From the IMG/VR virus record IMGVR_UViG_3300021137_000121, positions 1-20,968 of that record: a stretch of DNA of 20,968 nucleotides, one strand, 5' to 3'. Positions 2,662 to 20,968 of the stretch are shown piece after piece. The stretch is from a virus. Position 1 is the stretch's first letter. Every line of letters starts with the position of its first letter. A model generated the notes under the pieces. That model was not told where the DNA came from. It searched no databases and was given only the letters and a program-made list of their open reading frames with translations. Position numbers and translations under genes: made by a program.

Positions 2662-2664
2662 TTT

Positions 2665-3126
2665 TTAATCATCAGGCAGCCAGTCGGTAGAAAGTACATC
2701 ATCGATAGACCACGGGCAGTTTTGCGGAAAGTTGTCTAGGTTGGTTTCTTTTTCTGCAAGCAATCTTCCGTCTAGGTAAGCATCATCAAAGCGATCTTCT
2801 TCAATGAAGAAAGCCTTAAGGCTGGGCGTTCTTTTAAGTCTGAGCTGTATGCGCTTTCGTTGTTCTTTTATGGTCAGTGTCCAACTGCTTGATCTGCGTT
2901 CAGGTTGATACTGGTATTTCAACAAATGGCCGATGAGTACGGCCATTCTGTTCTCAAGTTCTCTTGCTTCACTTTTTCCCACGTCGTTTATTTCATCCGC
3001 TATATGTTCTAGGTCGAGCAGGTCAAAACGCCCTGCGCGGATAAGGTCAGCTTGCTCTCTAGCCCAAGCAACAATGTCTTGCTGATAGGTAGCTAAGGAT
3101 TGTTTGTCAAAAGCTATGGTAGACAT
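2665..3126 (-). CDS. DUF29 family protein
   Basis: A 153-residue soluble protein with the DUF29 pattern: N-terminal YQQDIVAWAREQADLIRAG, then DLEHIADEINDVGKSEARELENRM, then LIGHLLKYQYQPERRSSSW, and a C-terminal CPWSIDDVLSTDWLPDD. Its length fits the family, whose function is unknown. The start is placed at the ATG complementary to 3126-3124, preceded on its strand by GGAG about 11 bases upstream. An upstream ATG would add 20 unconserved residues (MFLLGYNQYIKYELI...). It is the only reverse-strand gene in the window and sits between phage late genes. It converges on the polyvalent gene with a 3-base gap and is divergent from the tail operon, so it must have its own promoter. This looks like an accessory (moron-type) gene. 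What it does for the phage or host is not known. Confidence 0.85.
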   Translation of the reverse strand: MSTIAFDKQSLATYQQDIVAWAREQADLIRAGRFDLLDLEHIADEINDVGKSEARELENRMAVLIGHLLKYQYQPERRSSSWTLTIKEQRKRIQLRLKRTPSLKAFFIEEDRFDDAYLDGRLLAEKETNLDNFPQNCPWSIDDVLSTDWLPDD

Positions 3127-3227
3127 GATTATGCTTACTCCAATTAATTCATATTTAATGTATTGATTGTACCCCAAAAGAAACAAATTACAGGCAGTGT
3201 TTAATTAATTAATTTAACACTCAAAAT

Positions 3228-3240
3228 GGTCGTGACAGCA
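3228..3240 (+). repeat. Copy 1 of intergenic 13-mer GGTCGTGACAGCA
   Basis: This is an exact match to positions 12543-12555. Both copies lie in the only non-coding gaps of the forward tail series. An AATTTAA lies 10 bases upstream here (3211-3217) and 13 bases upstream of the second copy. This copy ends 43 bases before the tube gene start. Its function is unknown; an operator, a late promoter element or an RNA leader element are all possible. Confidence 0.6.
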
Positions 3241-3246
3241 CCCTTT

Positions 3247-3267
3247 AGACGTTCCTTTTTAACGTCT
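3247..3267 (+). other. Leader hairpin before tail tube gene
   Basis: AGACGTT (3247-3253) pairs with AACGTCT (3261-3267) around the loop CCTTTTT. CAC (3239-3241) and GTG (3271-3273) can extend it past an internal loop. It lies just upstream of the GGAG ribosome-binding site, so it could act as a 5' leader stem-loop. It has only a weak T tail (TTA) and is unlikely to be an efficient terminator. Confidence 0.5.
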
Positions 3268-3283
3268 TTAGTGGAGTTGTACG

Positions 3284-3709
3284 ATGTCCTCAATAAATCT
3301 CAAAGCCAGAACTGGCAATAGAGTTATCGTCAAATTTGATGGTATGCAAATTGGTTTAATTCAATCAGTAAGACAGTCTGATGAGTATGGTTTGGAGCCA
3401 GCCAGCGGTATAGGGGATATTCATGTCGTCGAATATGTCCCATCGATGGCTAGGCACAGTATTTCTGTATCTTCAATGGTTTTATTTGTAGGAGCTATGC
3501 GAGAGGCTGGTATTACAGCTCTTAATGGTGACGATGTATTGCAAGGCAAGGTCTTTGATATTGTTGTTCAGTCTAAAGACGATGGCTCTGAGCTTCGTAA
3601 GTATGTGGGCTGTTCTTTTGCATCAGGTGATATTGATATTCAAAAGCATGGCATTATCGTTTCTAACGCTCAATTCAATGCGTTAGACGTTACTGGCTCA
3701 GGTCTATAG
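3284..3709 (+). CDS. Probable phage tail tube protein
   Basis: A 141-residue protein, rich in beta-strand and lacking membrane segments. It has the look of tail tube proteins of contractile and siphophage tails: N-terminal GNRVIVKFDGMQIGLIQSVR, a central DIHVVEYVPSMARHSISVSS strand, an insertion, then FDIVVQSKDDGSELRKY and a C-terminal VSNAQFNALDVTGSGL. Tube proteins form stacked hexamers through which DNA passes. It has a good ribosome-binding site (GGAG, 7 bases before ATG) and is the first gene of the forward operon. In myophages the sheath gene usually lies just upstream; here it is absent and the reverse DUF29 gene and polyvalent gene lie there instead. The assignment rests on pattern and context, so a related tube-fold protein such as a tube initiator or terminator is possible. 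Confidence 0.65.
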   Translation: MSSINLKARTGNRVIVKFDGMQIGLIQSVRQSDEYGLEPASGIGDIHVVEYVPSMARHSISVSSMVLFVGAMREAGITALNGDDVLQGKVFDIVVQSKDDGSELRKYVGCSFASGDIDIQKHGIIVSNAQFNALDVTGSGL

Positions 3710-3711
3710 TT

Positions 3712-4017
3712 ATGATGCCTAATTTCCGCAGAGGCTTTATTGCTGATTCAAGGTTATGGGTGTTATTAATTCCTGCGCTCGGCATATTGGCTGCAGATAT
3801 TCCTGTCATGCTGACCTTGCTCTATTCGCTATCAGCAATGATGGTTGTATTGGCGATGACACACTTCATGCGTCGTATTTTAATGCACTACATTGATCTT
3901 GAAGAAATGGCTGACATTGCTGCTGATACGCCTTTAGGGGCTGGATTAGTCTTTTGTGGCGTTTGCTTAATTATTTCTGCCATTGTATTAGCTACGGCAA
4001 TCTGGATAGCAAAATGA
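3712..4017 (+). CDS. Putative holin, three transmembrane segments
   Basis: A 101-residue membrane protein with three hydrophobic segments, roughly residues 14-28, 30-50 and 76-99. A basic loop (HFMRRILMHY) and an acidic loop (DLEEMADIAADTP) lie between the second and third. The pattern ADSRLWVLLIPALG, then RRIL, then YIDLE, then PLGAGLVFCGVCLI resembles a known putative phage holin family (possibly Phage_holin_8). Holins accumulate in the inner membrane and at a set time open holes that release or activate the endolysin. The next gene, overlapping by ATGA, encodes the muralytic enzyme, which supports this role. The gene starts 2 bases after the tube stop, with consecutive ATGATG codons; the first is used here. 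Confidence 0.75.
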   Translation: MMPNFRRGFIADSRLWVLLIPALGILAADIPVMLTLLYSLSAMMVVLAMTHFMRRILMHYIDLEEMADIAADTPLGAGLVFCGVCLIISAIVLATAIWIAK

Positions 4018-4622
4018 TTCCGGCTCTTGCAAAGCTATACATTCCTGTTCTTGCATCAGTATTGACGACCATGTGGCCGTCTATGCCCGATAAGCCTTTG
4101 TTTGCTGCGCAAGTTGAACAGGAAACTTGTGTATCTTTGACTGGCAAGGGCTGCTGGAATCCAAAGACAGAGTTAAAAACAAGTAGAGAGTATGGGTTTG
4201 GGCTTTCTCAGTTAACCATAACCAAACAGTTTAATAATTTTACTGCCGCTAAGGGTTGGGATAAATCATTAGCAAATTGGCAATGGTCTGATCGTTATGA
4301 TCCAGAGATGCAGTTAAGATCCTTGGTTGCTTATGACCGCAACTTGTTTGAGCAAATTAAGTTTGGTGCAACTGATGTGGATAGGCTGGCATTTATGTTT
4401 TCTGCCTATAACGGCGGTCTTGGTGGTGTGCTTAAAGATCGTCACATGTGCAGAACTATTAGTGGCTGTGATCCTGACAAGTGGTTTGGGAATGTTGAGA
4501 AATATTCTTTTAGATCACGAACAGCTGTAAAAGGTTATGGGCAGTCATTTTTTGATGTTAATCGTGGTTATGTAAAAAACATCATGATCGAAAGGGTTGA
4601 GAAGTACAGGGGTTTGCTGTGA
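4014..4622 (+). CDS. Phage lytic transglycosylase (SLT-type endolysin)
   Basis: A 202-residue protein. The start is the ATG overlapping the holin stop (ATGA); an upstream GTG/TTG-type extension has no support. Lytic transglycosylases cleave the beta-1,4 bond between MurNAc and GlcNAc, giving anhydro-MurNAc. Motifs: AAQVEQETC at residues 31-39 with Glu37 as the likely catalytic acid (the family usually has ES; here ET), GFGLSQLT at 61-68, and FMFSAYNGGLGG at 128-138 carrying the YNGG motif. An N-terminal hydrophobic stretch (residues 5-19, LAKLYIPVLASVLTT) could act as a signal or signal-anchor sequence and bypass full holin dependence; this is inferred. Several Cys residues (39, 47, 146, 152) could form disulfides in the periplasm. 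Confidence 0.85.
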   Translation: MIPALAKLYIPVLASVLTTMWPSMPDKPLFAAQVEQETCVSLTGKGCWNPKTELKTSREYGFGLSQLTITKQFNNFTAAKGWDKSLANWQWSDRYDPEMQLRSLVAYDRNLFEQIKFGATDVDRLAFMFSAYNGGLGGVLKDRHMCRTISGCDPDKWFGNVEKYSFRSRTAVKGYGQSFFDVNRGYVKNIMIERVEKYRGLL

Positions 4623-5266
4623 TCTCATGGGTGTTTGGGAAATTGATAGGCTTCTCTGCTGGGTTTACAAGCCCGTTTGCATTAAAAGTCATATTTTTGG
4701 GTGTGTTTATAGTCGGTATTTTTATTGGAGGCTGGGTCGTTAAGGGTGATTTTGATAATGCAACAATCATTAATCTTAAGGCTGAGCAAGAAAAACAATT
4801 GTCTGACATAAGAGCGCAAGAAGAGGCCGACCGAAAGGCGGTTAATGACGCTGTTGCTGCAAAAATAGCGGCTTCAGAAGCAGCTGGCAGAGTGCAAGTA
4901 TCGATCCTAACTGAGCAATTGCAAAAGAAACGCAAGGCTGCTCAAAACATTCAAATGGAGATTTCCCATGAAGAAAAAATTAATCCTAATCCTGTGCTCC
5001 CTAATAATGAGCTTACTAATGACTGGGTGCGCATCTACAACGAAGCCTTGCGAGGCGACGGTATTAGCTATGAACCCACCTCAAGAATTAATGATGAAAG
5101 CGGACGAACCAACATATCTGTCAGCTCCGGCCTTTCTCAGTGGGACGCCCTCCGCGTCCACACTATTAATGCCGAAAGTTTTTCCGCGTGCAGGGCGCAA
5201 TTAAACGCCTTAATCGATTTCATTAATTTACAGGCCAAGACTAGCTCAGTGGTCAATGAGAAATAA
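4619..5266 (+). CDS. Rz: Inner-membrane spanin (Rz-like)
   Basis: A 215-residue protein starting at GTG 4619, which overlaps the transglycosylase stop (GTGA). A single N-terminal transmembrane segment spans about residues 20-41 (ALKVIFLGVFIVGIFIGGWV). A long charged alpha-helical coiled-coil region follows (about 48-112, rich in A, E, K and Q), then a periplasmic tail. This is the architecture of an i-spanin, which joins an outer-membrane lipoprotein to fuse the two membranes in the last step of lysis of Gram-negative hosts. The decisive evidence is a lipoprotein gene nested in another frame at 4968-5204, the hallmark Rz/Rz1 arrangement. It is longer than lambda Rz (about 153 residues) because of a C-terminal extension, part of which overlaps the nested gene. 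Confidence 0.85.
   Translation: MISWVFGKLIGFSAGFTSPFALKVIFLGVFIVGIFIGGWVVKGDFDNATIINLKAEQEKQLSDIRAQEEADRKAVNDAVAAKIAASEAAGRVQVSILTEQLQKKRKAAQNIQMEISHEEKINPNPVLPNNELTNDWVRIYNEALRGDGISYEPTSRINDESGRTNISVSSGLSQWDALRVHTINAESFSACRAQLNALIDFINLQAKTSSVVNEK
4968..5204 (+). CDS. Rz1: Outer-membrane spanin lipoprotein (Rz1-like), nested in Rz
   Basis: A 78-residue protein encoded entirely inside the i-spanin gene in the +1 frame. The N-terminus is a lipoprotein signal peptide: KKK, then the hydrophobic LILILCSLIMSLL, then the lipobox LMTGC with Cys21 as the lipidated residue. The mature part is 58 residues with several prolines (PP at 37-38, and others), as in other o-spanins. It has its own ribosome-binding site GGAGA about 8 bases before ATG. 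With the Rz-like protein it should form the spanin complex that bridges the periplasm. An outer-membrane lipoprotein in the lysis cassette is the best evidence in the window for a Gram-negative host. Confidence 0.88.
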   Translation: MKKKLILILCSLIMSLLMTGCASTTKPCEATVLAMNPPQELMMKADEPTYLSAPAFLSGTPSASTLLMPKVFPRAGRN

Positions 5267-6413: not shown

Positions 6414-6657
6414 AGAACTACATGATACGTATTCATTTTGGTTTAGGCGTAAGTATAACTTGTCTCCTTTAGATCCTAGGTTTCTTGAATTGACTTCAGA
6501 AGATGTTGAGGCTGAGTTCTGGGCTTATTACTATGTAGATAAGCCGCCAGGTGAAGAATTTGAAGATGATGATTTTGATATTCAGGCCATTATGGATGAT
6601 TTGAATGGTGGTGATATAAATGATGATGAATGGGAAGAATTGATCAATGACCGTTAA
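6373..6657 (+). CDS. Tail assembly chaperone extension (T part of gpG-T), frameshift-translated
   Basis: This frame is open from the stop at 6352-6354 to TAA 6655-6657. It lies +1 (equivalently -2) relative to the 6066 gene. It has no ATG or GTG; the first possible start is TTG 6460, inside the recognisable motif FWFRRKYNLSPLDPRFLELT, which begins upstream of that codon. Coding character continues back through a basic stretch (KAIPKQAKRKGKEL) to about 6373. This is the classic G/GT layout in which a ribosomal frameshift adds a C-terminal domain that binds the tape measure protein. Candidate slip sites are the six-T run at 6369-6374 and GGG-TAA at 6408-6413. It ends 11 bases inside the tape measure gene. 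The exact slip site is not proven. Confidence 0.7.
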   Translation, partial: FVKAIPKQAKRKGKELHDTYSFWFRRKYNLSPLDPRFLELTSEDVEAEFWAYYYVDKPPGEEFEDDDFDIQAIMDDLNGGDINDDEWEELINDR

Positions 6658-9600
6658 AATTAATGTCTCTGCTGATGTATCTGATGTTCAATCTGGACTA
6701 AAGAAAGTCCAAGATTCGGCTGATAAAATCAATAAGTCTTTATCAGGTGAGGTTGATTTTGATTTTAAGCAGGGTAAGGATGATCTAGCTGAATTAGCTG
6801 CCAATGCTAAAAAACTGACTGATCTTTTAGAAAAAGCCAAAAAAAATGGCTCTGATTTATCTGGCGTTGATTTTGATGCGGTCTCTAAAGTATTTGAGGA
6901 AGCAGCCAAATCTGCCGAGGAACTTGATAGGGCACTTGAGTACCTAGGAAAATCTGATGGGTTGTCTAAGGTCGTAAAGAGCTCAAAAGATCTGACTGAA
7001 AACATCAAAAAAGCAACCAGAGAACAAAAGACCTTAAGGGAAGAAAATAGAAAATACATTACTGACCAAGAAAAGTACGATAGAGCAAGAAACTCAGGTG
7101 CTGCAGGATCTAGGCCTTTTAGAAATATTTTACATGAAGATATTTTGGGCGGTGGTTGGCGTAAAGTCGATGTTGATGAAGCAGCAGCAAAGCGTAAAAC
7201 AAGGAATTTTTTTGATTTTGCTGGAATAAAAGTTCCCAAGGATTTATTTGGCAATGGTGATTCTGAAAAAGAAAGGGTAGATGCTGAAAAACAGGCTGAG
7301 AAAGAGCGCATATCTGCTGAGCAAAAAGCTGATAGAGAGCGTCAATCTGCTGCGCAAAGTAATGCTCGAAGAATAGCTGCTGTAGCAGGAGCTGTAGGAA
7401 GCTATGCGGGCAGCATGGGGCAGGGTGGCGGGATAATGGGTTCAGCAGGGCGATTAGCTGGCTCTGGTATTGGTGCTGCTGCTGGAGCAGTGGCTGGTTC
7501 ACTTATCCCTATTCCTGTTGTTGGCTCTATGATTGGTGCAGGCGTTGGTGCTTTTGCAGGAAAGTTACTAGGTGGCGCTGGTTCTGCTGTTGATAGCAAG
7601 GCTGATGATGTTACTGCAGAAGGTGCAATGTATACGGATTTGCGTCATTCATTAGGCGCAACATCCATAGACTTTGAGATGTTGCGCGGTTCAGTTCGTC
7701 ATTTTTCAGAAGGCTTAGGCTTGGCTTATAACGAGTCAGCCAAGTTGGCTAAAGAGTTTGCGCATACCGCTAACCTTAATGGTGAAGACGGCATGAAGGT
7801 TGGCAAGGAGGTGGGCTCTGCTGTCGCTTTTGGTCGCGGCTATGGAATTTCACCTGATCAGTCTGTGCAGTTTATCGCAACTATGCGTCAAATGGGTGTT
7901 ACTCAAGATGATAAGGGTAATCGTAAGCTTGCATTACAAATAGCTGAGTCTGTCAAAAGTGGTGGCACATCGGCAAAAATGGATGAGGTATTAGCTTCAT
8001 TGCAATCTTATGTGCAGACATCGACAAGGCAATCCTTAACTTCTGCTGATGCAGGCGCTTACGCGTCTTTTATGGCTTTGCTGACTGGATCGTCAGTGCC
8101 AGGCATGAAGGGCGATCCTCGCAATGCAGCCGCCACTATGAATGCGGCAGATGAGGCTATGCGACAGGGCGGCGCTCATGGTGAAGCTTCAAAAAATGTT
8201 AGTCTAGCAGCTTATCAGCAGCTATTTGGCAACAACTTTAATGCGTATGATGCTAAATTTGTCAATGAACAAGGTGCATTTAACGATCTTGGTAAATCGT
8301 TTGATAATGTTATTTCTGTGGCTGAGGATCGAGGTGATAAAGGTGAGGCTGATCGATATAGAGAAATGGCTAAGGCCGGTAGGGGCAAGACTGCTTTATC
8401 AGTCAATATGGATTTTCTTGAGAAAGAGTTTGGGCATCAGCCGCTTGGTGAGTTTATTGGTTCTGGTGCAAATCATTTTGGCATGGGTGTTAATCAATTT
8501 TCAGCGCTTAATACTGCCATTAATAAGGTTGGCGGCACAAATAATTTAGAAAAAACTTTATCTGATGCTGGTGTTGATATGAGCAACATGAGTATGGATA
8601 AGGTTTCTTCGCTTGCGGCGCTAGCAACGGGAAGCAAAGATGAATTAAAGGCGCAGGCTAAGAGATTGCAGGGGCTAACTGGTGAAAATAAATTATCAGA
8701 TCCAGAGAGAAGCGCACTAAAGCAAGGGCTGGATGAAGATAACGAAGATAAGATACGTAAATCAGTGCTTAATTTATCATCTAAGCACAATGCATTAGGC
8801 GATAGCGGTGAGAAAGGAAGGCAATTACAAGCCACCGCAGACAATCTTTTACAAGAAATGGCAACAAAACTTGTGCCTTATACGCAAGCAATTAAAGAAG
8901 GCATTACTGAGTTAGTGCGCAATGCTGCGCCTGATTCAGAGTTTGTTAAGCAAATGGATGCTGAGAAGGAAAAGCAAAAGAAGGATGCTGAAAAAGCAAG
9001 TTATTTGGATGCGCAAATTGAAGAAAGAAAAAAGATGGTTGATGATCCGAGTAGATCAAGGGATCATGAAGGTGATATTAATCTTTATAATCATCTTGTT
9101 AAAAAGCGTAAAGAAATTGGTATTCCAACTGAATACAGTGAAATAGATGCGCCTACGCCTTGGGGAAATAAAAAAGACTATACTCAGTATGGGGATAGTA
9201 AGACAAAAGATTCATCTCCTCTTGCCAAAAATCAGTCTGATTTTATAGAAAAAACTAAGTCAGCTGCGGAGCGTGCGGCGACAAAAATTAACAAAGATAC
9301 CGGCTCATCAATTTCAGCATCTGATATACAAGCTCAATGGGGTCTTGAGACTGGATGGGGTAAGTCAGTTCTTTCTGGAACTAATAATCTTGGCAATATT
9401 AAAGCCGGAAATGATTATAAAGGTCGCCATAAAATATTTAATGTAAATGAGGTTGATAAGGATGGTAAGCCTTATAAAACTGATCAGTCTTTTAGGGCTT
9501 ATGATTCATTAGATGATTCTGCTGATGATTATGCTGATTTAATATCAAGAAAATATCTAAATGGAAAGCCAGCTGCTAATGGGGCAGAATTTGCAAAAAG

Positions 9601-10195
9601 GTTAAAGCAGGGTGGTTATGCAACTGATCCAGACTATGAAAGCAAGCTTAGATCTGCAGCTAATAAAATAAATAGTAATAGCAGTATAGCTATTGCTTCC
9701 GAAGACAATAAATCTGCCAAGCCAGAAACAAAAGAAGAGAAGCAGAAAATTGTTAAGGAAGCTGTTAAGGGCAATGATGCTATAAAAAAAATACCCCCCC
9801 AAGAAAAGTTGGCTGATGCGATAGCTATGCCAGAATCTGCCAAGGCCGGCCCTAATGATCCTTATGATATTAATCAGACATTTCCATCTAATGAAGTAGA
9901 CAAGGCTTTAGATCCAAATCGTACATTTGAAAGAAATCAGATTGATGATGCGCTTGATCCTAATAGAAATTTTGAGCGTAATCAGATTGATGATGCACTT
10001 GGTAAATCAGCTGACTCAGATGGAAAGCTTCCGAAAGGCACTGTAATGGGCTCTTCAGGACAGCCTATTGCTCAAACGATTACCCATAAAATGGAAGGCA
10101 AGGTAACTCTTTATGATCCTTCTGGAAATCAAGTAGCAGATCCCGTATTAATGGCATCGGTTGGAATGCCTGTGGCCTCAGGTATGCCAAGATGA
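6647..10195 (+). CDS. Tail tape measure protein with GH73-like glucosaminidase domain
   Basis: A 1182-residue protein, the longest in the window, following the chaperone pair and overlapping it by 11 bases. GGGAAG lies about 9 bases before ATG. It sets tail length and is ejected during infection. Layout: residues 1-240 are helical and charged; 244-315 are a glycine/alanine-rich hydrophobic stretch (GSGIGAAAGAVAGSLIPIP...) of the kind thought to enter the membrane; a long helical middle follows. About 855-1003 forms a FlgJ/GH73-type glucosaminidase: SASDIQAQWGLETGWGKS with Glu901 as the likely catalytic acid, NLGNIKAG, FRAYDSLDDSADDYADLI and RLKQGGYATDPDYESKL. Near the C-terminus (1071-1118) are three short repeats, consensus DPNRxFERNQIDDAL. 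The muralytic domain would locally open the peptidoglycan during DNA entry. Confidence 0.9.
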   Translation: MTVKINVSADVSDVQSGLKKVQDSADKINKSLSGEVDFDFKQGKDDLAELAANAKKLTDLLEKAKKNGSDLSGVDFDAVSKVFEEAAKSAEELDRALEYLGKSDGLSKVVKSSKDLTENIKKATREQKTLREENRKYITDQEKYDRARNSGAAGSRPFRNILHEDILGGGWRKVDVDEAAAKRKTRNFFDFAGIKVPKDLFGNGDSEKERVDAEKQAEKERISAEQKADRERQSAAQSNARRIAAVAGAVGSYAGSMGQGGGIMGSAGRLAGSGIGAAAGAVAGSLIPIPVVGSMIGAGVGAFAGKLLGGAGSAVDSKADDVTAEGAMYTDLRHSLGATSIDFEMLRGSVRHFSEGLGLAYNESAKLAKEFAHTANLNGEDGMKVGKEVGSAVAFGRGYGISPDQSVQFIATMRQMGVTQDDKGNRKLALQIAESVKSGGTSAKMDEVLASLQSYVQTSTRQSLTSADAGAYASFMALLTGSSVPGMKGDPRNAAATMNAADEAMRQGGAHGEASKNVSLAAYQQLFGNNFNAYDAKFVNEQGAFNDLGKSFDNVISVAEDRGDKGEADRYREMAKAGRGKTALSVNMDFLEKEFGHQPLGEFIGSGANHFGMGVNQFSALNTAINKVGGTNNLEKTLSDAGVDMSNMSMDKVSSLAALATGSKDELKAQAKRLQGLTGENKLSDPERSALKQGLDEDNEDKIRKSVLNLSSKHNALGDSGEKGRQLQATADNLLQEMATKLVPYTQAIKEGITELVRNAAPDSEFVKQMDAEKEKQKKDAEKASYLDAQIEERKKMVDDPSRSRDHEGDINLYNHLVKKRKEIGIPTEYSEIDAPTPWGNKKDYTQYGDSKTKDSSPLAKNQSDFIEKTKSAAERAATKINKDTGSSISASDIQAQWGLETGWGKSVLSGTNNLGNIKAGNDYKGRHKIFNVNEVDKDGKPYKTDQSFRAYDSLDDSADDYADLISRKYLNGKPAANGAEFAKRLKQGGYATDPDYESKLRSAANKINSNSSIAIASEDNKSAKPETKEEKQKIVKEAVKGNDAIKKIPPQEKLADAIAMPESAKAGPNDPYDINQTFPSNEVDKALDPNRTFERNQIDDALDPNRNFERNQIDDALGKSADSDGKLPKGTVMGSSGQPIAQTITHKMEGKVTLYDPSGNQVADPVLMASVGMPVASGMPR
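9857..10000 (+). repeat. Three tandem coding repeats in tape measure C-terminus
   Basis: The units are 9857-9910 (DPYDINQTFPSNEVDKAL, diverged, 18 codons), 9911-9955 (DPNRTFERNQIDDAL) and 9956-10000 (DPNRNFERNQIDDAL). The last two are 15 codons each and differ by one residue, but they differ at several third codon positions, so the duplication is not very recent and the protein sequence appears conserved. Confidence 0.85.
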
Positions 10196-11682
10196 GAGTC
10201 TATGAGCCAAAGGTAGAAGTGAGGCTAGTAAAAGCCATAAATAGAAAAGAAATTATTCCGACTGTTCCTGTTGTTGCAAAGCGCTACGGCGATTCTTTAA
10301 AAGCTATCGATTTAACACCTTATCTAGGTGAGAATGGGGGCGTACATATATCTAAAGGCATTCGTGAGCCTGCAGGTGCTTGGTCTGTTACTATTTGTGA
10401 TAAGCCTCATGCAGTTAGCGATAAGAGTCAAAAGTCCTTATTTGAAACGATTTATGCCTTAGTAGAGCCTATGGATTTAATCGAGATTCGTATGGCGCAT
10501 GATCCTTATACTTACCGTGATGATGTGAAGCATACCACGGGTCTGCCTGTAGTTATGCGCGGCTTTGTGTCAATGGTAACGCGCAATGAAATTATGTCAG
10601 GTGGTAAGCCTACCAGGACAGTGACTATTTCTGGTCAGGATTTTGGTAAGATTCTTCAAATAATTCAGATTTTTTATTTAAACAACTCAATGGTTGGTGA
10701 CAACATTTTAAGTGAGTTTGCTTTTTTTCAAAAATATGGGGTTGATGCAAAGATTAAGCCGGCTATTGATTTTGTTGCTGATGTCCTTAATGGTATTCTT
10801 AACCCTTATTTGGCAAAATTAACAGCACTTGCTAATGGGAAAAGCATTGGTGCGGATGTTGTCAATGTCATTACGCCTAATGTCACTATAGAGGGCTCTA
10901 TATCTCCTAAAGTAGTTTCTAGTAAAGTTAATGTGTCTTTATATCAGCTATTGGTCTCTGTGCTAGATATAGGCGCATTCAATGAGTTATTTATTGAAGA
11001 TACCGATGGTGGCATAGCCTTAACCGTTCGTCCTGCGCCCTTTTTAGATGTAGATGGCAATCCTATTCAAGGTCATGCGCCCGACTCTATTCAAATTGAT
11101 TCTACGGATATAGTTGCCATCAATGTATCAAGGTCTGATGCGGGTGTAGCCAATTACTATTGGGCTCAATGTGCGCCTTGGGCATTAACCAGCAATGAAG
11201 ATCAAAAGGCGGCAGCCTCGGTGGGCGATAAGTCTACGTTCATTTTGTATGATTACCTAAACTGTATGCAAGCTTATTATGGTGTTAGGAAAATGGAGGT
11301 TGAAATATCACTAGGTCCGCCTTCTTATTCATGGTCTGATGCAATAAGAGCAACGCAAGCAGATTCGCAAACTTCATCATTGTCAGCTTGGATAGTTAGT
11401 AGGCGGAAAATCTTATCATCGATTAATAAAGATAATGTGATATTTGAAAGTGGCTCATTACGCCTTAGAGGCAATGAGCGCATTAAGGCAGGGATGCAAT
11501 TAAATATAAGTCGTGGAAATAAAATGTATTCCAGCTATTACGTTACCAAAGTAGATCATGAGTTTGTGCCTTTTCAGGGTTTTTATACTACTGTTACGGT
11601 TGAAAGAGGTACGAGTTTTATAACGCGCTCCCAAAGTGATCAGCTTACTTATTTTTTAGAAATTGATGGCAAGGGGGTGTGA
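10192..11682 (+). CDS. Baseplate hub protein (gp27 / late control gpD-like)
   Basis: A 496-residue protein starting at the ATG that overlaps the tape measure stop (ATGA). Hub proteins (T4 gp27, P2 gpD, Mu gp44) form a trimer at the tail tip between tube and spike. Sequence support: the N-terminal beta region has TPYLGENGGVHISKGIREPAG, ICDKP and LVEPMDLIEIRMAHDPY. It is followed by GFVSMVTRNEIMSGGKPTRT and VTISGQDFGKILQ, the latter typical of hub first domains. The C-terminal part has GSLRLRGNERIKAGMQLNI and YYVTKVDHEFVPFQGFYTTVTVERG, as in the closing barrel of hub proteins. The next gene encodes the spike, the usual partner. The order tape measure, hub, spike is the standard myophage order. 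Confidence 0.82.
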   Translation: MRVYEPKVEVRLVKAINRKEIIPTVPVVAKRYGDSLKAIDLTPYLGENGGVHISKGIREPAGAWSVTICDKPHAVSDKSQKSLFETIYALVEPMDLIEIRMAHDPYTYRDDVKHTTGLPVVMRGFVSMVTRNEIMSGGKPTRTVTISGQDFGKILQIIQIFYLNNSMVGDNILSEFAFFQKYGVDAKIKPAIDFVADVLNGILNPYLAKLTALANGKSIGADVVNVITPNVTIEGSISPKVVSSKVNVSLYQLLVSVLDIGAFNELFIEDTDGGIALTVRPAPFLDVDGNPIQGHAPDSIQIDSTDIVAINVSRSDAGVANYYWAQCAPWALTSNEDQKAAASVGDKSTFILYDYLNCMQAYYGVRKMEVEISLGPPSYSWSDAIRATQADSQTSSLSAWIVSRRKILSSINKDNVIFESGSLRLRGNERIKAGMQLNISRGNKMYSSYYVTKVDHEFVPFQGFYTTVTVERGTSFITRSQSDQLTYFLEIDGKGV

Positions 11683-12503
11683 TGTTTTCTTTAGCAAGAG
11701 TGGTTAATATTCATCCAGAGTCTAATTCAGTTGATGTTGAGTTTATGGATGATGGCAGGCGTGTTTCTGGTGTTCAATGTATGGCTAATACTGCAGGTAC
11801 AGATTTTGGCAATGCTGATTTATCAATGCCCGACTCAGTTGGTTATGGAACTCCAATAAGCAAAACCAGAAATATTATTGCCGTAGTTGGCTTTGTAAAT
11901 AGCTTTCCTATTGTTATGGGTTTCTTGTTTCCCGAAGTGACTCAGTGTCTATTTAGTGACATTAATCGCAAGATATATCGTCATGCCTCTGATGTTTATT
12001 ATTCAATTGATGGGGCTGGAAATACTGAGTTTGTGCATCCATCGGGGGCGTTTGTGCGCTTTGGTGTCACACCTGCACATGAGGATTTAACCGGTAAAGA
12101 TTATGATAATCTTTGGAAAATAAGCCGAAACACCGATAAAGCAGTTCATATACATATAGAGCAAGCGGCAGGAAAGGCTTCTATAGATATTGATCCAGCT
12201 GGTAATATCTCAATCGCTAATGCAGGCAATTCAACGATTGCTACGACTGGTGATATATCAATGTCAGCAGGTGGCAATATATCCTTGGCCGCTAAAGGAA
12301 GCTTGTCTATATCAGCAAAAGGCGGCATTTCATCAACAGCTTCAGGAAGCATGGCCATAAAAGCAGCCGCCATTGAAACAACAAGTTCTATGCACATCAC
12401 TGGAGGCATTACTTCTGATGCCGATGTTGTGGCGGGTGGCATTAGTTTAATGAAACATACGCATGGTGATGCTCAAGGTGGCAGGACAAGCCTGCCATCA
12501 TAA
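11682..12503 (+). CDS. Baseplate spike protein (gpV / gp45-like) with beta-helix and His-x-His tip
   Basis: A 273-residue protein. Start ATG 11682 is chosen because AAGGGGG (11671-11677) is 4 bases upstream; the GTG just before it (11679) is also in frame. An N-terminal OB-like domain (about residues 1-90) runs from SLARVVNIHPESNSVDVEFMDDG to a VVGFVNSFPIVMGFL strand. From about 140 to 250 lies a regular series of short strands (GNISIANAG, GDISMSAGGNISLAAKG, GSLSISAKGG) as in triple-stranded beta-helix spikes. The end, MKHTHGDAQGGRTSLP, carries His259 and His261, the HxH pattern by which Mu gp45 and P2 gpV bind an iron ion at the membrane-piercing tip. The protein forms a trimer on the hub. 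Confidence 0.9.
   Translation: MFSLARVVNIHPESNSVDVEFMDDGRRVSGVQCMANTAGTDFGNADLSMPDSVGYGTPISKTRNIIAVVGFVNSFPIVMGFLFPEVTQCLFSDINRKIYRHASDVYYSIDGAGNTEFVHPSGAFVRFGVTPAHEDLTGKDYDNLWKISRNTDKAVHIHIEQAAGKASIDIDPAGNISIANAGNSTIATTGDISMSAGGNISLAAKGSLSISAKGGISSTASGSMAIKAAAIETTSSMHITGGITSDADVVAGGISLMKHTHGDAQGGRTSLPS
12479..12497 (+). other. GC-rich hairpin at end of spike gene
   Basis: TGGCAGG (12479-12485) pairs with CCTGCCA (12491-12497) around the loop ACAAG. It lies over the last codons of the spike gene and is followed by TCATAATTGATT rather than a T-run. It might pause or partly terminate transcription at this gene boundary, but an efficient intrinsic terminator is not supported. Confidence 0.35.
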
Positions 12504-14316: not shown

Positions 14317-15423
14317 ATGTTTCAGCTTAAGGACATGATTTCTATTAGCGCAGGTATGATAAACCGCGCTAAAGCAACACAGGCAAAGATAACTGATTTT
14401 AATATAGGCTCTGTTGCAAGGACGATGCTTGAATCGTCGGCGATTGAAGTTGAACAGTTTTATCAGCGTATGTTTTACGGAATCCTTGAAGCTATTCCGA
14501 CAGCCATTTATTTAGGCTTTAATTTTACAATGATTCAGCCTACTGAGGCTCAGGGTCTAGTTACCATTAATTTTGCTGGACCTATAGTAAGTGCCTTTAC
14601 TATTCCGGCTGGAACTATTTTTGTAAATTCATCTAATGCTGTTACTTATTTATCAGTTCAAGATACCTCTGTTGGGCTGGGCGTCACTACCATTAACGTA
14701 CTAGTTCAATGCTCTCAAGCAGGCTCGGCAGGCAATGCGCCTTATGGGGCTATTGATTCAACTCAAAACTATAGCCTGCCAGTTGGTGCAGTAATTATTG
14801 GGAATGCTATTAGTTCGGGTGGAGATGGCGAAACAGACCTAGAGAGACAAGCTCGATTTGCGCAATATATTCAAACTTTAGCAAGAGGCACAAATAGTGC
14901 GGTTGAGTATGGTGCGCGTATGGCGCAAATATTTTCAGCAGATGGCAGTCTTATTGACTATGTAAGTAGGGTGGGGTTTTCAGAAGTACCAGGCACTATG
15001 AGTGTTTATATCTATGGCTCAAACGGCCTTGCCTCACCTGCATTGGTAGCTGATGCTCAAAAAATTATTGATGGTTATTGGGATGCTGCAAGCCAAACTT
15101 TTATAGCAGGATGGAGACCGGTAGGTATACAGGTAATTGTTTTCCCCATGATACAGCAGCCAGTTGATGCTATTTTTACGATAGTGATGTTTTCTGGCGT
15201 GGCCTTAGATACCGCTGTTAAAAATAACATTATGACTGCAATTTCAGCTCAAATTACCTCTGTTTTGCCTAGTTTTGTTTTATATGTTGAAAATATTGAT
15301 GATGCTATTTTAACAGTTGCTGGTGTTCAATCTGTTAGAAACAATATGACTTCTAATATTACTTGTCCATTCAATACTGCATTAGTGATGGGTAATATTG
15401 AAATAATTGAGGGGACTAGCTAA
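14317..15423 (+). CDS. Baseplate assembly protein J-like (gp6/gp47)
   Basis: A 368-residue protein beginning directly after the previous stop (TAA then ATG). The motifs are those of baseplate J: ITDFNIGSVARTMLESSAIEVEQFYQRM near the N-terminus, then QGLVTINFAGP, FTIPAGTIFVNSSNAVTYLS, SAGNAPYGAI, SSGGDGETDLERQARFAQYIQTLARGT, then VEIIEGTS-type C-terminal strands after VLPSFVLYVENIDDAILTVAGVQ. J forms the wedge core that encircles the hub and transmits the contraction signal. Length is in the normal range (about 300-390). Its stop overlaps the next start as TAATG. Confidence 0.9.
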   Translation: MFQLKDMISISAGMINRAKATQAKITDFNIGSVARTMLESSAIEVEQFYQRMFYGILEAIPTAIYLGFNFTMIQPTEAQGLVTINFAGPIVSAFTIPAGTIFVNSSNAVTYLSVQDTSVGLGVTTINVLVQCSQAGSAGNAPYGAIDSTQNYSLPVGAVIIGNAISSGGDGETDLERQARFAQYIQTLARGTNSAVEYGARMAQIFSADGSLIDYVSRVGFSEVPGTMSVYIYGSNGLASPALVADAQKIIDGYWDAASQTFIAGWRPVGIQVIVFPMIQQPVDAIFTIVMFSGVALDTAVKNNIMTAISAQITSVLPSFVLYVENIDDAILTVAGVQSVRNNMTSNITCPFNTALVMGNIEIIEGTS

Positions 15424-17525
15424 TGGTAGCAACTCGCGAAAGGCTGATAGACAATCTATATAGCGGCCTTGATCCTTCTCCTGATGAAGAAATAGTTTTA
15501 CGGATAGGGCAGGGAGGCAAGCTATCGTGGACGGTTTCTAATGATGTTTTAACTGTAATGGGCGCTAATGGCGCCTTATCTGCATTTAAGCTTAGCAATA
15601 CGACTATTGGTGAGTTAGCTAATTCACTGTCCGATTCATCAATTGATGTTAAGTATATCAATAATGATTTTTTAACGATTAGTGCGGCTGCCATTATTGA
15701 TGGTAGTGGCACTGAGTCAGAAACTAATGGTGATGCGCTTTCTGCTTTTACATCTATTTTATGGGCGTTTATGGACGCCTATGCTGTTGAGCTTGATGCG
15801 GCAAATAGTAATATAGATGAGGCTATTGCTGATCTTTATATCAATAGCGCTACAGGGGAAATTCTTGATATTTGGGGTAAATATTTTGGTGATCCACGTA
15901 ATCTTGGTGAGTCAGATTCAGATTATAGCAAGCGGATTATTATTGATACCTTGCGCCCAAAATCAAATAAATATGCATTAATCAATGCCGCTGATGCGCT
16001 ATCGGGCTCTAAAATTGATATTTATGAGCCTTGGACTGATTTGTTTTTCTTGTCTCAATCTAATCTTGATGATCAACATACTTATGATGGCGATATGTGG
16101 TCGCCTTACGTATTTAGACCTCAGCTCAGAGCGCAGCAAAATATCAAATGGGCTGCTATCACGGCCTTATTTGAAAAGCTTCGTCCTGCAGCTGTTTTTC
16201 AATTGCCTCCAGAGTTTATTCCTGATACCAGAGGCAATGAGGTTAGTGTTAAAGGCTTAGGTATCTCGCAAACTGATGATGTTTTTGTGGGCGCTAGATA
16301 CGCCGACAAAATGAATCTTGATGATTATCATCTGGGTGATCCAGTCATCAATAATTATCGTATGTCAGTTTATGACATCTATGGCATGGGTTTATATAAG
16401 TTAATGCCGATTGGTTGGAATAGCGCCCAAGATCAGCAAGATTATTACTGGAATGGCTCTTGGGATAGCCGTGCATGGGACATATTAGCTTTAGAAAATG
16501 GCTGGAACGGTTTATGGGATGGTCATGAATGGTTTGGAGCTCTTCCGGCTAATGGTTGGGACAATAGGTCATGGAATGATTTATATCCCAGCATAGGGAC
16601 GCCTATTCCAGAGCTGCCTTTAGAATTACATGCAAGGCGCTTATTTGTTCATGCTGATATTGTTTTATCTGATATGGATGAGGGCTTTGGTCATGAACGC
16701 TTTATGTTTACAGGCGGTTGCCAAGTAACGAGAAATGTTCCTGTATTAGATGATTTTCTTTTGTCTGATTTTGATATGGGAACGACTTATGAAGAATTTG
16801 AAGACGTTTATTTAGAAAGTCATATTTTAGGCAATGATGGCACTCAGATGCCTTATTCATTAGGAATAAATGTAAGCAATGAAATAGCTTTGTCAGCTAC
16901 GGTCATAGGCTCTTTAGATTGGAATGGCGCATGGTCTTCGGCATCATGGGACGCTGTAATAGCTGATATTGGCATAACTCATGAAATAGGTTTGTCGGTC
17001 ACGGCTAATGCTATGGCTATTCATGAGCCTTTATATTGGAACAACTTATGGTCGTCTGATACCTGGAGCACTACAACATTATCACATGATTTATTTTGGA
17101 ATGGTTCTTGGTCTACAAGTTCTTGGAATTCAAATGCTTTTAGTTACGGTTTTAATATAGGTTCTTACGATACTTATAGTCTGCAAGGGGCATTTAACAG
17201 CGGCTCAGGGATTAACAGTATTAGTAGTTTTGCTTCTGGCGTTTCCGTTTCAATGTCTCCTGAATACATTAATGCTATGTCAATAGATTATGACTATATT
17301 GAGGATGATTATGTGCTGCCTGATTATACGGTCGGTTACTTTCAGTCAATGAGTTTAGTGCCTTCTGTTGTTGCTGAAACGGTCGTGACAACAGAATACA
17401 TAGAAGTTAATCCAACTAATGGGGCTGTTAGCTTAATGTGGGCTGACAATTGGTCGGTTTATTCTTGGGATTATAGCTCAACCTATTCTGGCATCTGTAT
17501 TACTGTTCAAACGGAGAACAACTAA
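15423..17525 (+). CDS. gpI-like baseplate/tail protein with C-terminal tryptophan repeat extension
   Basis: A 700-residue protein. Residues about 100-285 match the tail protein I/wedge type: FTSILWAFMDAYAVELDAANSNIDEA, GEILDIWGKYFGDPRNLGESDSDYSKRI, LRPKSNKYALINAADAL, YVFRPQL and ALFEKLRPAAVFQLPPEF. Family members normally end near there (about 180-300 residues). Here about 400 more residues follow with at least seven copies of a W-rich motif, consensus W-N-G-x-W-S-x-x-x-W (about residues 341-390, 499-512, 537-575 and 672-684). GpI links the baseplate to fibres, so the extension may itself be a fibre or fibre-attachment region; that is inferred. Composition is low in basic residues and rich in Ser, Trp, Asp and Asn. 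Gene order after J supports gpI. Confidence 0.8.
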   Translation: MVATRERLIDNLYSGLDPSPDEEIVLRIGQGGKLSWTVSNDVLTVMGANGALSAFKLSNTTIGELANSLSDSSIDVKYINNDFLTISAAAIIDGSGTESETNGDALSAFTSILWAFMDAYAVELDAANSNIDEAIADLYINSATGEILDIWGKYFGDPRNLGESDSDYSKRIIIDTLRPKSNKYALINAADALSGSKIDIYEPWTDLFFLSQSNLDDQHTYDGDMWSPYVFRPQLRAQQNIKWAAITALFEKLRPAAVFQLPPEFIPDTRGNEVSVKGLGISQTDDVFVGARYADKMNLDDYHLGDPVINNYRMSVYDIYGMGLYKLMPIGWNSAQDQQDYYWNGSWDSRAWDILALENGWNGLWDGHEWFGALPANGWDNRSWNDLYPSIGTPIPELPLELHARRLFVHADIVLSDMDEGFGHERFMFTGGCQVTRNVPVLDDFLLSDFDMGTTYEEFEDVYLESHILGNDGTQMPYSLGINVSNEIALSATVIGSLDWNGAWSSASWDAVIADIGITHEIGLSVTANAMAIHEPLYWNNLWSSDTWSTTTLSHDLFWNGSWSTSSWNSNAFSYGFNIGSYDTYSLQGAFNSGSGINSISSFASGVSVSMSPEYINAMSIDYDYIEDDYVLPDYTVGYFQSMSLVPSVVAETVVTTEYIEVNPTNGAVSLMWADNWSVYSWDYSSTYSGICITVQTENN
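16446..17480 (+). repeat. Dispersed coding repeats WNGxWSSxxW
   Basis: Copies in order: YYWNGSWDSRAWDIL, NGWNGLWDGHEWFGAL, NGWDNRSWNDL (three in a row near 16446-16590), LDWNGAWSSASWDAV (about 16917), LYWNNLWSSDTWSTT and LFWNGSWSTSSWNSN (about 17034-17135), and MWADNWSVYSWDYSS (about 17437). Three tryptophans at fixed spacing recur, with Asn/Gly turns between them. Other phage tail proteins carry repeats such as xDGxxxLDG in similar places; this looks like an aromatic version of that. Confidence 0.8.
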
Positions 17526-18041
17526 ATGGCAATTTTAACCGCATCCGGTCGCACCGCTATAGCGGCATCAATAGCGGCTCAACCTATACATTTTGCATGG
17601 GGGTCTGGAAGTCCTAGTTGGGATGTTACTCATGTTGCTGAAGATTTTAATGCAACAGGCTTGGTGACTGAAATAGGTCGTCGTCTTGCAACCAGTGTGC
17701 AATATGTTAATCCTGATAATTCGGGCAGCATTGTTGTTCCCGTATTCAATGACGCTTCAGGCAATAGTATCTCTAAAAGCTTTTCGCTTTCAACCGTGCC
17801 TACGCCAAACTTATACATGCGTTTTAATTTTGACTTTACTGATGCGCCTATAGCTACCATTCGTGAAGTAGCTATTTTTGTTGGCACTATAGTAGCTACA
17901 GGTCTTCCGGTAGGTCAGCTTTATTTTACGCCCGATCAACTGGTAAGCTATGGGACTTTATTAGCGCTTGAAAATTTAATAGAGAACATTCAAAGATCAC
18001 CTAACTCAAGACAGTCTTTTGAGTTTGTTCTAACCATATAA
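17526..18041 (+). CDS. Small conserved tail protein, function unknown
   Basis: A 171-residue protein directly after the gpI-like stop, with GGAG 11 bases upstream. The N-terminus (MAILTASGRTAIAASIAAQPIHFAWGSGSPSWD) and the later YMRFNFDFTDAPIATIREVAIFVG followed by GQLYFTPDQL are typical of a short phage tail protein that occurs between gpI-like and fibre genes. It is beta-rich, without membrane segments or cysteines. Its place suggests a fibre adapter or small baseplate-peripheral protein; no enzymatic motif is present. It is followed after 12 bases by the DUF4815 gene. Confidence 0.65.
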   Translation: MAILTASGRTAIAASIAAQPIHFAWGSGSPSWDVTHVAEDFNATGLVTEIGRRLATSVQYVNPDNSGSIVVPVFNDASGNSISKSFSLSTVPTPNLYMRFNFDFTDAPIATIREVAIFVGTIVATGLPVGQLYFTPDQLVSYGTLLALENLIENIQRSPNSRQSFEFVLTI

Positions 18042-18053
18042 TCTGGGGCAATT

Positions 18054-20024
18054 ATGACTAATACAACAATGCCTTATGGTTATTATGATCGATTTGATAT
18101 ATCAAAAGGCTATGAGAAAAATTTATTTGTAGCCGGTGCTGGCCTGCAATCAGCAGAGCTTAATGAGATTCAAGATTACGCAACTCATCAGATTCAAAGT
18201 ATTGGCAATGCAATGTTTCATGATGGCAATGTTATAAAAGATGCGGCCATTATTGTTAATCCTACTACGGGTGTAGTGACTGCTGAAGCTGGCATGATCT
18301 ATATTATGGGCGCTGTAAGAGGCGTTGCGGCGGCTTCATTTACTATTCCTACTGTTGGAGAGATAGCCATTGGTCTTTATTTGCAAGAGACAGTTGTTAC
18401 TGCGCTTGATGATCTGGCTTTACGTGATCCAGCTTCTGGTACTCGAAACTATCAGCAGCCTGGCGCTTCTCGTTTAAAGCGTCAAGTAGTGTGGGGATTT
18501 GTTGGCGACAATCAGTCGGGTGAATTTTATCCTGTTTACACCGTTGTCGATGGCGTGCAAATTTCTAAAATTTCTCCGCCCAATGTCGATCCTATTACAC
18601 AATCTATCGCTAAGTATGATCGTGACTTATCAGGTGGTGACTACATTGTGACTGGCTTTAGCGTCACTATTCAGCCAGATGATAATAATAAACAAAATTA
18701 TTCTATAGCAGCAGGTCGTGCTCGTGTAAATGGTTATGCCGTTGAGCTTAGCACTTCATCGCGCATGGTGTTTGATGCGCAGGCTGATGAGATGTATGTT
18801 GATTCAGAGCCTTATGCCTCTACAACACTGGCTGCACAGCGTATTACTTTGGCACAAGCACCGATTGCCAATATCACTAAAGTGGGTATTACCTCTCAAA
18901 AAACAGCAACCATGACTCATGGTGCTTATAACGGTGCACTTGATCCTCTGCCAGATAATTCAGTTTTAACACTGGTTTCTGTTGTCCAAGGGACTACGAC
19001 CTATGTAGCTGGTACTGATTACAAATTAACTGCCGGTAAAGTAGATTGGTCTTTAACAGGCGCAGAGCCTGCTACTGGATCAACCTATTCTGTCACCTAT
19101 CAATATATGACTTCAGTAGTGCCTACTCTAGTAGATGCTACAGGCTTAACAGTGACAGGAGCTGTTACAGGCTCTTTAATTCTTGTTAGTTATAACTTTT
19201 ATTTGCCTCGTTTTGATCGTATTGCTTTGGCGTCTGATGGCTCTTTTGTCTGGGTTAAGGGCGTTGCTGCTGAATGGAATCCGCAGCCGCCCGCCATATC
19301 AAATTCATTGCTTCCTATTTGCACCATTGCTCAAACTTGGGATGCTAACCGTTCTATCGTCAACGATGGTGTGCGTGTAGTGCCTATGAATGACATTGTG
19401 GCTATGAATGAACGCATTAGTTATGTGCTTGGGCTTGTTGCTCAGCAAGAATTAACAATGGGTATTCATACTCGTGAGGCAGGTGCTAAAAAAGGTTTAT
19501 TTGTTGATCCATTTTTGGATGACTCACAACGAGATGCTGGCACACCGCAAACAGCTGCTGTTATTAACGGCACTTTGAATTTGCCGATATTAGCTGTTGC
19601 TAATAATACAGTTGGAGACATTACTTCCGCAAAATCTTTACCCGCTATTCAGACTGTCGATTTATCCCAAGCTCTAAAAACATCATTTATGCCGGTTAAT
19701 CCGTATATGTCATTTGCTGTGACGCCTGCGGTGATTACATTAACGCCTGCTATTGATGTTTGGACTGAGGTAACGACAAGCTGGGCAGCTCCAGTGACTA
19801 ATTATGTCTATGACAATCATGGTTGGTGGTGGTGGTGGTGGGGCTGGTATGGCTGGGGCTGGCAGACAGTGTCAACAGCAACCAATACGTTGTCTAGCAC
19901 TAGCACGCCCGCACAAACTTTGCGTCAAATTGATATTGATTTTTCAATCTCTGGCTTTGAGGCTAATGAAAACTTAATAGTGACGACTTTTGATGGCATC
20001 ACTATCACGCCTGTAGCGCAGTAG
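18054..20024 (+). CDS. DUF4815 tail protein with poly-tryptophan segment
   Basis: A 656-residue protein with GGGGC before ATG. The N-terminus YYDRFDISKGYEKNLFVAGAGLQSAELNEIQDY, then FHDGNVIKDAAIIVNP and GMIYIMGAVRGV, is diagnostic of DUF4815, a domain of large phage virion proteins at the tail periphery. The middle alternates beta-rich segments. A region near residue 440 (VVPMNDIVAMNERISYVLGLVAQQELTMGIHTREAGAKKGLFVDPF) matches the conserved core. The C-terminal part holds an exceptional aromatic stretch at 591-603: six tryptophans in a row followed by GWYGWGW (nt 19824-19862). Function: fibre base or adhesin support is inferred from position; no experimental role is known to me for this domain. 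Confidence 0.82.
   Translation: MTNTTMPYGYYDRFDISKGYEKNLFVAGAGLQSAELNEIQDYATHQIQSIGNAMFHDGNVIKDAAIIVNPTTGVVTAEAGMIYIMGAVRGVAAASFTIPTVGEIAIGLYLQETVVTALDDLALRDPASGTRNYQQPGASRLKRQVVWGFVGDNQSGEFYPVYTVVDGVQISKISPPNVDPITQSIAKYDRDLSGGDYIVTGFSVTIQPDDNNKQNYSIAAGRARVNGYAVELSTSSRMVFDAQADEMYVDSEPYASTTLAAQRITLAQAPIANITKVGITSQKTATMTHGAYNGALDPLPDNSVLTLVSVVQGTTTYVAGTDYKLTAGKVDWSLTGAEPATGSTYSVTYQYMTSVVPTLVDATGLTVTGAVTGSLILVSYNFYLPRFDRIALASDGSFVWVKGVAAEWNPQPPAISNSLLPICTIAQTWDANRSIVNDGVRVVPMNDIVAMNERISYVLGLVAQQELTMGIHTREAGAKKGLFVDPFLDDSQRDAGTPQTAAVINGTLNLPILAVANNTVGDITSAKSLPAIQTVDLSQALKTSFMPVNPYMSFAVTPAVITLTPAIDVWTEVTTSWAAPVTNYVYDNHGWWWWWWGWYGWGWQTVSTATNTLSSTSTPAQTLRQIDIDFSISGFEANENLIVTTFDGITITPVAQ
19824..19841 (+). 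repeat. TGG triplet run (six Trp codons)
   Basis: Six TGG codons in a row, preceded by GGT and followed by GGC TGG TAT GGC TGG GGC TGG. Each slippage event of three bases would add or remove one tryptophan without a frameshift. Confidence 0.95.
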
Positions 20025-20036
20025 GAGATTATATAA

Positions 20037-20968
20037 ATGACACTTAAAGCAAATTCATTAGGCGCTGTCAGCGGAAAATTTACCATTCCAGCAGGCGTGC
20101 CATCGGGGAATAAGTTAGTTGCCTTTACAGGTGATAAAGGTTCTCATGGCCAGGCCATTTTTACAGGGGAGGGTACCTTAGTCTCTCAAACTTTGCAGCT
20201 TGTGACTACATTAAGCGAAAACTACTGGTGGTGGTATTACGACCCTCTAGCTCAGACCTTTATGGTTAATGCGGATGGTCAATACTCTGCTGTTGAGTTA
20301 TTGGTAGGTGCTGTCGGGAGTTCTGATGTAACTGTGCAAATTCGTACTTGCCAATTAGGATTTCCAACGCAAACTATTTTAGCGACCTCGCGTTTACCTG
20401 CTTCTAGTTTGCTGACGAACGGTGCTTTCACTCAATTCAATTTTGATGCGCCTGTATATCTTACGCAGAATACCGAATATGCCATTGTTGTGCTTTGTGA
20501 TGATGCAACTACAGCTATTGGTGTTGCTGAAATGGGTAAATATGATGTGACTCATGGTCAGTGGGTTACTTCTCAACCTTATACGGTTGGGGTGTTGCTA
20601 TCATCATCTAATGCCTGTACATGGACTGCAAGTCAAGATGTAGATCTTACCTTTAAATTGATTAAATCTAGCTATACGACAACGTCGGCTGATATTGCTT
20701 TAGGTTCAGTTGCACTAGATCATGCGACTGATTTAATGGTTGTTGGTATGGCAACACAACCGACCTCCGCTACAAAAGTCAGCTATAAGTTAACTATGCC
20801 AGATGGCACAGCTTCGGTTGTTTCATCAGGTCAGCCCATACAATTGGCTAATCAAACTAGTGGCTCAATGAAAGTTGATGCCATGATTTTGGGTGATGCT
20901 AATGCTTCGCCTGTTGTTTACCCTGGTGTACAAGTTATTGCTGGCATGGTCATGAGCACAGCCGATTA
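20037..20968 (+). CDS. Tail fibre / peripheral tail protein, 3' end beyond window
   Basis: The frame is open from ATG 20037 to the last base; at least 310 residues are visible. The ribosome-binding site is AGGAG (20023-20027), 9 bases before ATG, overlapping the previous stop region. The protein is beta-rich: an N-terminal GAVSGKFTIPAGVPSGNKLVAFTG strand pair, then ENYWWWYYDPLAQTF with three adjacent tryptophans (residues 64-66). A jelly-roll-like block follows: DVTVQIRTCQLGFPTQTILATS, FNFDAPVYLTQNTEYAIVVLC and SNACTWTASQDVDLTFKL. This pattern is common in proteins encoded right after DUF4815 genes in large phages, and may be carbohydrate-binding. A role in host binding is inferred. Total length and C-terminal receptor-binding part cannot be seen. 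Confidence 0.75.
   Translation, partial: MTLKANSLGAVSGKFTIPAGVPSGNKLVAFTGDKGSHGQAIFTGEGTLVSQTLQLVTTLSENYWWWYYDPLAQTFMVNADGQYSAVELLVGAVGSSDVTVQIRTCQLGFPTQTILATSRLPASSLLTNGAFTQFNFDAPVYLTQNTEYAIVVLCDDATTAIGVAEMGKYDVTHGQWVTSQPYTVGVLLSSSNACTWTASQDVDLTFKLIKSSYTTTSADIALGSVALDHATDLMVVGMATQPTSATKVSYKLTMPDGTASVVSSGQPIQLANQTSGSMKVDAMILGDANASPVVYPGVQVIAGMVMSTAD

Follow-up and report, generated by a model that had tools for sequence, protein, structure and literature searches.

A fixed tryptophan run in a hypervariable loop of a DUF4815 phage baseplate protein, and its possible role as an exposed aromatic patch

The fragmentary virus record IMGVR_UViG_3300021137_000121 of IMG/VR (positions 1 to 20,968, the 20,968 nucleotides of which are referred to here as the window) encodes a baseplate protein of the DUF4815 family, in which a run of six tryptophans forms part of an insert in the most variable loop of the family. 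This insert is tentatively interpreted as an exposed aromatic patch with a predicted contact to the envelope, while the repeat in the DNA is best explained as a by-product of tryptophan having a single codon, with the tryptophan content being selected at the level of the protein. The run is real and unusual, and in the functional account given by the first-pass annotation, the sticky patch is plausible, whereas its tuning by slippage is unsupported. The protein itself belongs to a known baseplate family, and the poly-tryptophan insert is a new variant within it.

The baseplate protein and its gene neighbourhood

The insert is found in a protein of 656 amino acids (18054–20024, on the plus strand, as are all the features of the window described below, except where stated), which had been annotated as a tail protein, a correct assignment that can be narrowed to a DUF4815 baseplate component, homologous along its length to the baseplate protein of the Staphylococcus phage phi812 (PDB 9euf, 9eui, and 9euj; “ORF65”). 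It matches Pfam PF16075 (DUF4815) at 609.9 bits, against a cut-off of 30, over residues 11–577 and positions 3–570 of the 570 of the profile, and the 9euf chain in a profile comparison (E 8e-89), while its AF2 model retrieves the phi812 chains by fold (9eui/9euf, in Foldseek). A profile built from 37 naturally fused homologues matches the entire 9euf chain (E 3.5e-148), with the domains in the same order.

The 656-residue protein corresponds to the N-terminal half of what many relatives have as a single chain, and phrog_877 spans it and the product of the next gene as one polypeptide. This second-half gene (20037–20966) is cut by the end of the window (its complete ORF has 404 amino acids in the relatives), and encodes an Ig-like start followed by a domain that begins at a DPLAQTF motif, corresponding to the second half of phrog_877 and to residues 730–960 of 9euf (E 1.5e-23). 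The phi812 protein is one chain of 1152 amino acids with no poly-tryptophan, whereas that of the window phage is split into 656 and 404 amino acids.

Upstream of the DUF4815 gene are the genes of BW3TFN (baseplate wedge 3/tail fibre network connector, of the A511 gp105 type; 17526–18041; PF25691, 155 bits; name from PMC10811340), a gp48/gpI-like wedge protein, and a J-like protein, which together identify a contractile-tail baseplate cluster. The same order, that is, J-like, gpI/wedge, BW3TFN or its equivalent, and DUF4815, is present in ST4, Dolphis, and L190. The window also encodes a probable tape measure protein of 1182 amino acids (6647–10195), with a glucosaminidase domain (PF01832) in its C-terminal half, and a DUF29 gene (PF01724; 2668–3186, minus strand), which is inverted with respect to its neighbours and is a possible cargo gene.

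The closest gene cluster is that of the IMG/VR records 3300020709_000044 and 3300027712_000360 (L190/L192 and L191), which has the same order, with 54% identity in the 656-residue protein. In the Wolbachia phage WO (VrlC.1/VrlC-type), as in the window, the DUF4815 half and the second half are two adjacent genes, the first of which is 41–43% identical. The large tail-fibre-network proteins of the Listeria phage A511 (gp106) and the Bacillus phages Deep-Blue (Gp176) and Vp4 (Gp120), known as “tail fiber/VrlC”, are encoded beside a BW3TFN gene of the gp105 type, as in the window, but are single chains in phages of Gram-positive hosts, and the likeness of A511 gp106 to the window protein rests on family and gene position. 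In A511, gp106 builds pyramids that, following the binding of the fibre, are reoriented towards the cell wall, and the C-terminal part of its homologues has carbohydrate-binding folds (PMC9863714, PMC11406892).

The tryptophan run

Six consecutive TGG codons (19824–19841) encode W591–W596, preceded by GGT at codon 590 and followed by GGC TGG TAT GGC TGG GGC TGG, which gives WWWWWWGWYGWGW at residues 591–603 (19824–19862), with nine tryptophans in 13 residues. The first-pass annotation had reported six TGG codons and this density of tryptophan, and its account is exact to the base, with all the coordinates correct. The run lies in a 21-residue insert, NYVYDNHGWWWWWWGWYGWGW (residues 583–603; 19800–19862), which contains no charged residue except for one Asp. 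Across the whole window, this is the sole perfect trinucleotide run of at least four units, and in 20,000 shuffles of the residues of the protein, the longest tryptophan run was of four, reached in five shuffles. As the shuffles never exceed four, the run is not a product of chance at the protein level.

Two further contigs, 3300000439_000158 (L023, G001) and 3300022602_000312 (L024, G002), were compared with the window over positions 14554–20968, where one of them has 2 and the other 11 substitutions, with no indels in 6.4 kb. In the 656-residue protein, the amino-acid differences among these near-identical phages are restricted to residue 103. Both contigs also have six TGG units, and a scan of all the viral contigs for the flanks of the repeat, with a spacer of 0–30 bases, matched just these two. 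A repeat of 18 bases is short in relation to the usual read length. As the run is present in two further IMG/VR records, a sequencing or assembly artefact was rejected as its source. The first gene of the window encodes a large protein with an LPD1 domain and an HEWFH motif, and it is within this gene, at 64–406, that the window and the G001 contig diverge, while they are 99.8% identical in the rest.

A hypervariable loop across the family

In an alignment of 167 homologues, 98 of which are non-redundant, residues ~580–620 form the most length-variable region of the family, with a standard deviation of 8.8 residues in the top 20-residue stretch, in comparison with 2.5 or less outside it. The loop ranges from 7 to 87 residues among the homologues, with other low-complexity contents being Ser/Thr or Gly-rich. 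In the 98 non-redundant homologues, with the conserved tryptophan columns excluded, tryptophan makes up 2.3% of the loop, but 0.30% of the sequence before it and 0.23% of that after it, and is thus 7–8 times commoner in the loop than in the rest of the protein; the value in the loop is still 2.0% once the group of the window is taken out.

Several other lineages have independently acquired Trp-rich loops. In distant phages, for example, the loop is RGWWGWSYWGWRGRNWRRTRWNRWGWNN in L062 (nine tryptophans), RGWWRVRQRVWNSRTRTWNWVWRRGWN in L139 (eight), YRYGWRWWKYYYRYGWNY in L143 (four), and RIWDWQW in L013 (three), with seven, eight, and four Arg or Lys residues, respectively, in the first three. 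In all four loops, TGG is mixed with Gly, Arg, Asn, and Tyr codons, with no pure run, which indicates that the recurring property is the aromatic content, rather than the TGG repeat. The tip of the loop is GWGN in many relatives where others have GSGN, and the phi812 loop at the equivalent position (~620–670) is another long insert, which includes W and Y. The loop of the VrlC-type protein of Wolbachia phage WO is among the shortest of the family (22 residues), and has no tryptophan.

The AF2 model of the 656-residue protein has a long predicted helix (residues 445–479; 19386–19490) before its beta-rich C-terminal part, and the loop at residues 589–603 has a pLDDT of less than 50, so the model provides no conformation for it. 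In the model of the fused homologue L043, the loop (572–602, between the strands at 566–574 and 599–604) is also disordered. These models are of monomers, whereas A511 gp106 is a trimer. A search of the literature on DUF4815 and on Trp-rich loops of phage tails found nothing specific.

A second tryptophan loop and the gpI-like protein

The next gene has three TGG codons (20226–20234), correctly pointed out by the first-pass annotation, which encode W64–W66 of its ORF (NYWWWYY), in the loop that precedes the DPLAQTF motif. In the L043 model, residues 689–702, directly before D703 of this motif, have a pLDDT of less than 50, and form the site that corresponds to the WWWYY of the window. Aromatic or Trp residues recur at this loop in the relatives, and the WWW loop may be a patch related to the tryptophan run, a relationship that is supported, or at least allowed, by the evidence.

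Aromatic enrichment had also been claimed to extend to a third protein, the gpI/gp48-like wedge protein (15423–17525; Mu gp48 below the threshold, phrog_7378 baseplate). This protein is indeed rich in tryptophan (27 residues, 3.9%), but its tryptophans lie in a spaced motif, W-x3-W-x4-W, and not in TGG runs, which means that the “shared” enrichment refers to three different things. The C-terminal half has six copies of the motif, in comparison with a mean of 0.036 and a maximum of two in shuffled sequences, and the repeat takes the form [LFY]WNGxWSSxxW. The existence of a single aromatic module in the three proteins was rejected, given that the motif is spaced differently, that the half that bears it matched nothing in the phage collection, and that three copies are retained in the nearest relative, L190, in which the other two features are missing.

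Variation in the downstream fibre locus

The two sister contigs match each other until approximately 220 bases beyond the second-half gene, inside a fibre gene and near its start, and then diverge, at a locus that the window stops short of. In 3300000439_000158 (1113–4625, minus strand), a fibre with an Lcl_C (DUF1566-type) end is accompanied by an Avd-like gene, a template repeat (~2213–2314), and a reverse transcriptase. The template differs from the variable repeat (~2916–3017; 102 bases) by 14 mismatches, and given that all 14 are located at template adenines, the locus has the signature of a diversity-generating retroelement. In 3300022602_000312 (11242–12387, plus strand), the corresponding position holds another fibre, which has a Peptidase_S74 chaperone at its end.

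The receptor-binding variation of this phage group lies just downstream of the second-half gene, where one fibre gene has been exchanged for another and where one of the contigs carries a retroelement. The constancy of the tryptophan run in phages with different fibres tends to argue against the run acting as a host-range dial. In the sister lineage, L191 and L192 (~95% identical) likewise part from each other in the fibre region, close to the same position beyond the second-half gene, which suggests that the replacement of the fibre there is recurrent.

Interpretation of the loop

The first-pass annotation had proposed that the TGG units expand and contract by slippage, in frame, adjusting adhesion, and that the units be counted across strains. 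While the perfect, in-frame repeat of 18 bases is unique of its kind in the window, the count is constant at six in the three assembled genomes (3/3, from three assemblies only), with no difference in repeat number among them. In the nearest relatives (L190/L192 and L191), all 21 residues of the insert are missing, and there is no shortened run, which points to the gain or loss of an insert, and not to a change in the number of units. These relatives also lack the WWW of the next gene, but retain the W-x3-W-x4-W motif of the gpI-like protein. The interspersed TGG codons of the independently Trp-rich loops in other phages also speak against slippage. As tryptophan has a single codon, a run of this residue is automatically a TGG repeat, and its purity does not represent independent evidence of slippage. 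The Gly codons that flank the run differ (GGT and GGC), and the purity of the repeat does not exceed that forced by the amino-acid run, whereas such an excess would mark a contingency microsatellite. As no difference in length was seen and the run is forced by the codon, slippage tuning, which is highly improbable, was dropped; the other half of the proposal, that of a probable exposed aromatic patch at the baseplate, is supported or remains compatible with the findings.

In the tentatively preferred reading, the TGG run encodes the tip of an insert that is specific to this lineage and lies in the hypervariable DUF4815 loop. This loop joins two beta strands in the domain that follows the long helix, and adjoins the second half of the protein, in which another Trp loop precedes the DPLAQTF domain. 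The loop would face the host rather than another subunit, and several copies per baseplate may display an exposed, sticky aromatic surface. The downstream fibre would bind first, with the gp106-like units then swinging towards the cell, where the aromatic surface may help to hold the baseplate to the envelope, through the LPS, the membrane interface, or sugars. The variability in length, the enrichment in tryptophan, the disorder in both models, and the separate recurrence of Trp-rich loops all favour this reading. Against it stand the near absence of charge from the insert of the window, in comparison with the cationic loops found in L062, L139, and L143, and the ability of the nearest relatives to manage without the insert. 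A broader proposal, which is rather doubtful, is that this loop of the DUF4815 proteins has evolved repeatedly into a Trp(/Arg)-rich element through which contractile-tail baseplates contact the envelope. Different phages would independently have filled it with aromatic, and often cationic, residues, in parallel with the second Trp loop, and it would anchor the baseplate non-specifically to the membrane or LPS, apart from the variable receptor-binding fibre.

In the main rival reading, the two loops may instead pack against each other, or around the axis of the trimer, stabilising a protein made of two chains, a possible arrangement, although one to be viewed with some reserve. All three loops with at least eight tryptophans (those of the window, L062, and L139) come from split genes and have two or three tryptophans before DPLAQTF, loops with at least three tryptophans are associated with at least two at this second site (Fisher p 0.0035, uncorrected for relatedness), the nearest relative, L190, lacks both the Trp insert and the WWW, and no other disordered segment of the L043 model is as long as either of these loops. 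However, the independent nearest pairs include six concordant and two discordant cases, which is not significant, and the coupling of the loops is therefore retained only as a rival explanation; in addition, L143 and L013 have Trp-rich loops but no tryptophan in the second loop, and the length and composition of the loop vary freely, unlike those of a packed core. It is also conceivable, but quite unlikely, that the insert is a tolerated, near-neutral surface insertion with no specific role, its repeat having grown by chance duplication and been fixed by drift, as the wide range of loop lengths, the other low-complexity contents, and the absence of the insert from the nearest relatives would allow. 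The recurrence of the enrichment at this loop in unrelated phages, at 7–8 fold, argues against this, as do the costs and the tendency to aggregate that are expected of exposed tryptophan runs.

Significance

The analysis flags a single loop, present in the solved homologue of phi812, as a hot spot for aromatic patches in the baseplates of unrelated phages, and provides a concrete range of residues in which to inspect what the baseplates touch after the binding of the fibre. It also sets a fixed, protein-driven tryptophan run apart from true hypervariation, which, in this phage group, is located in the downstream fibre locus.
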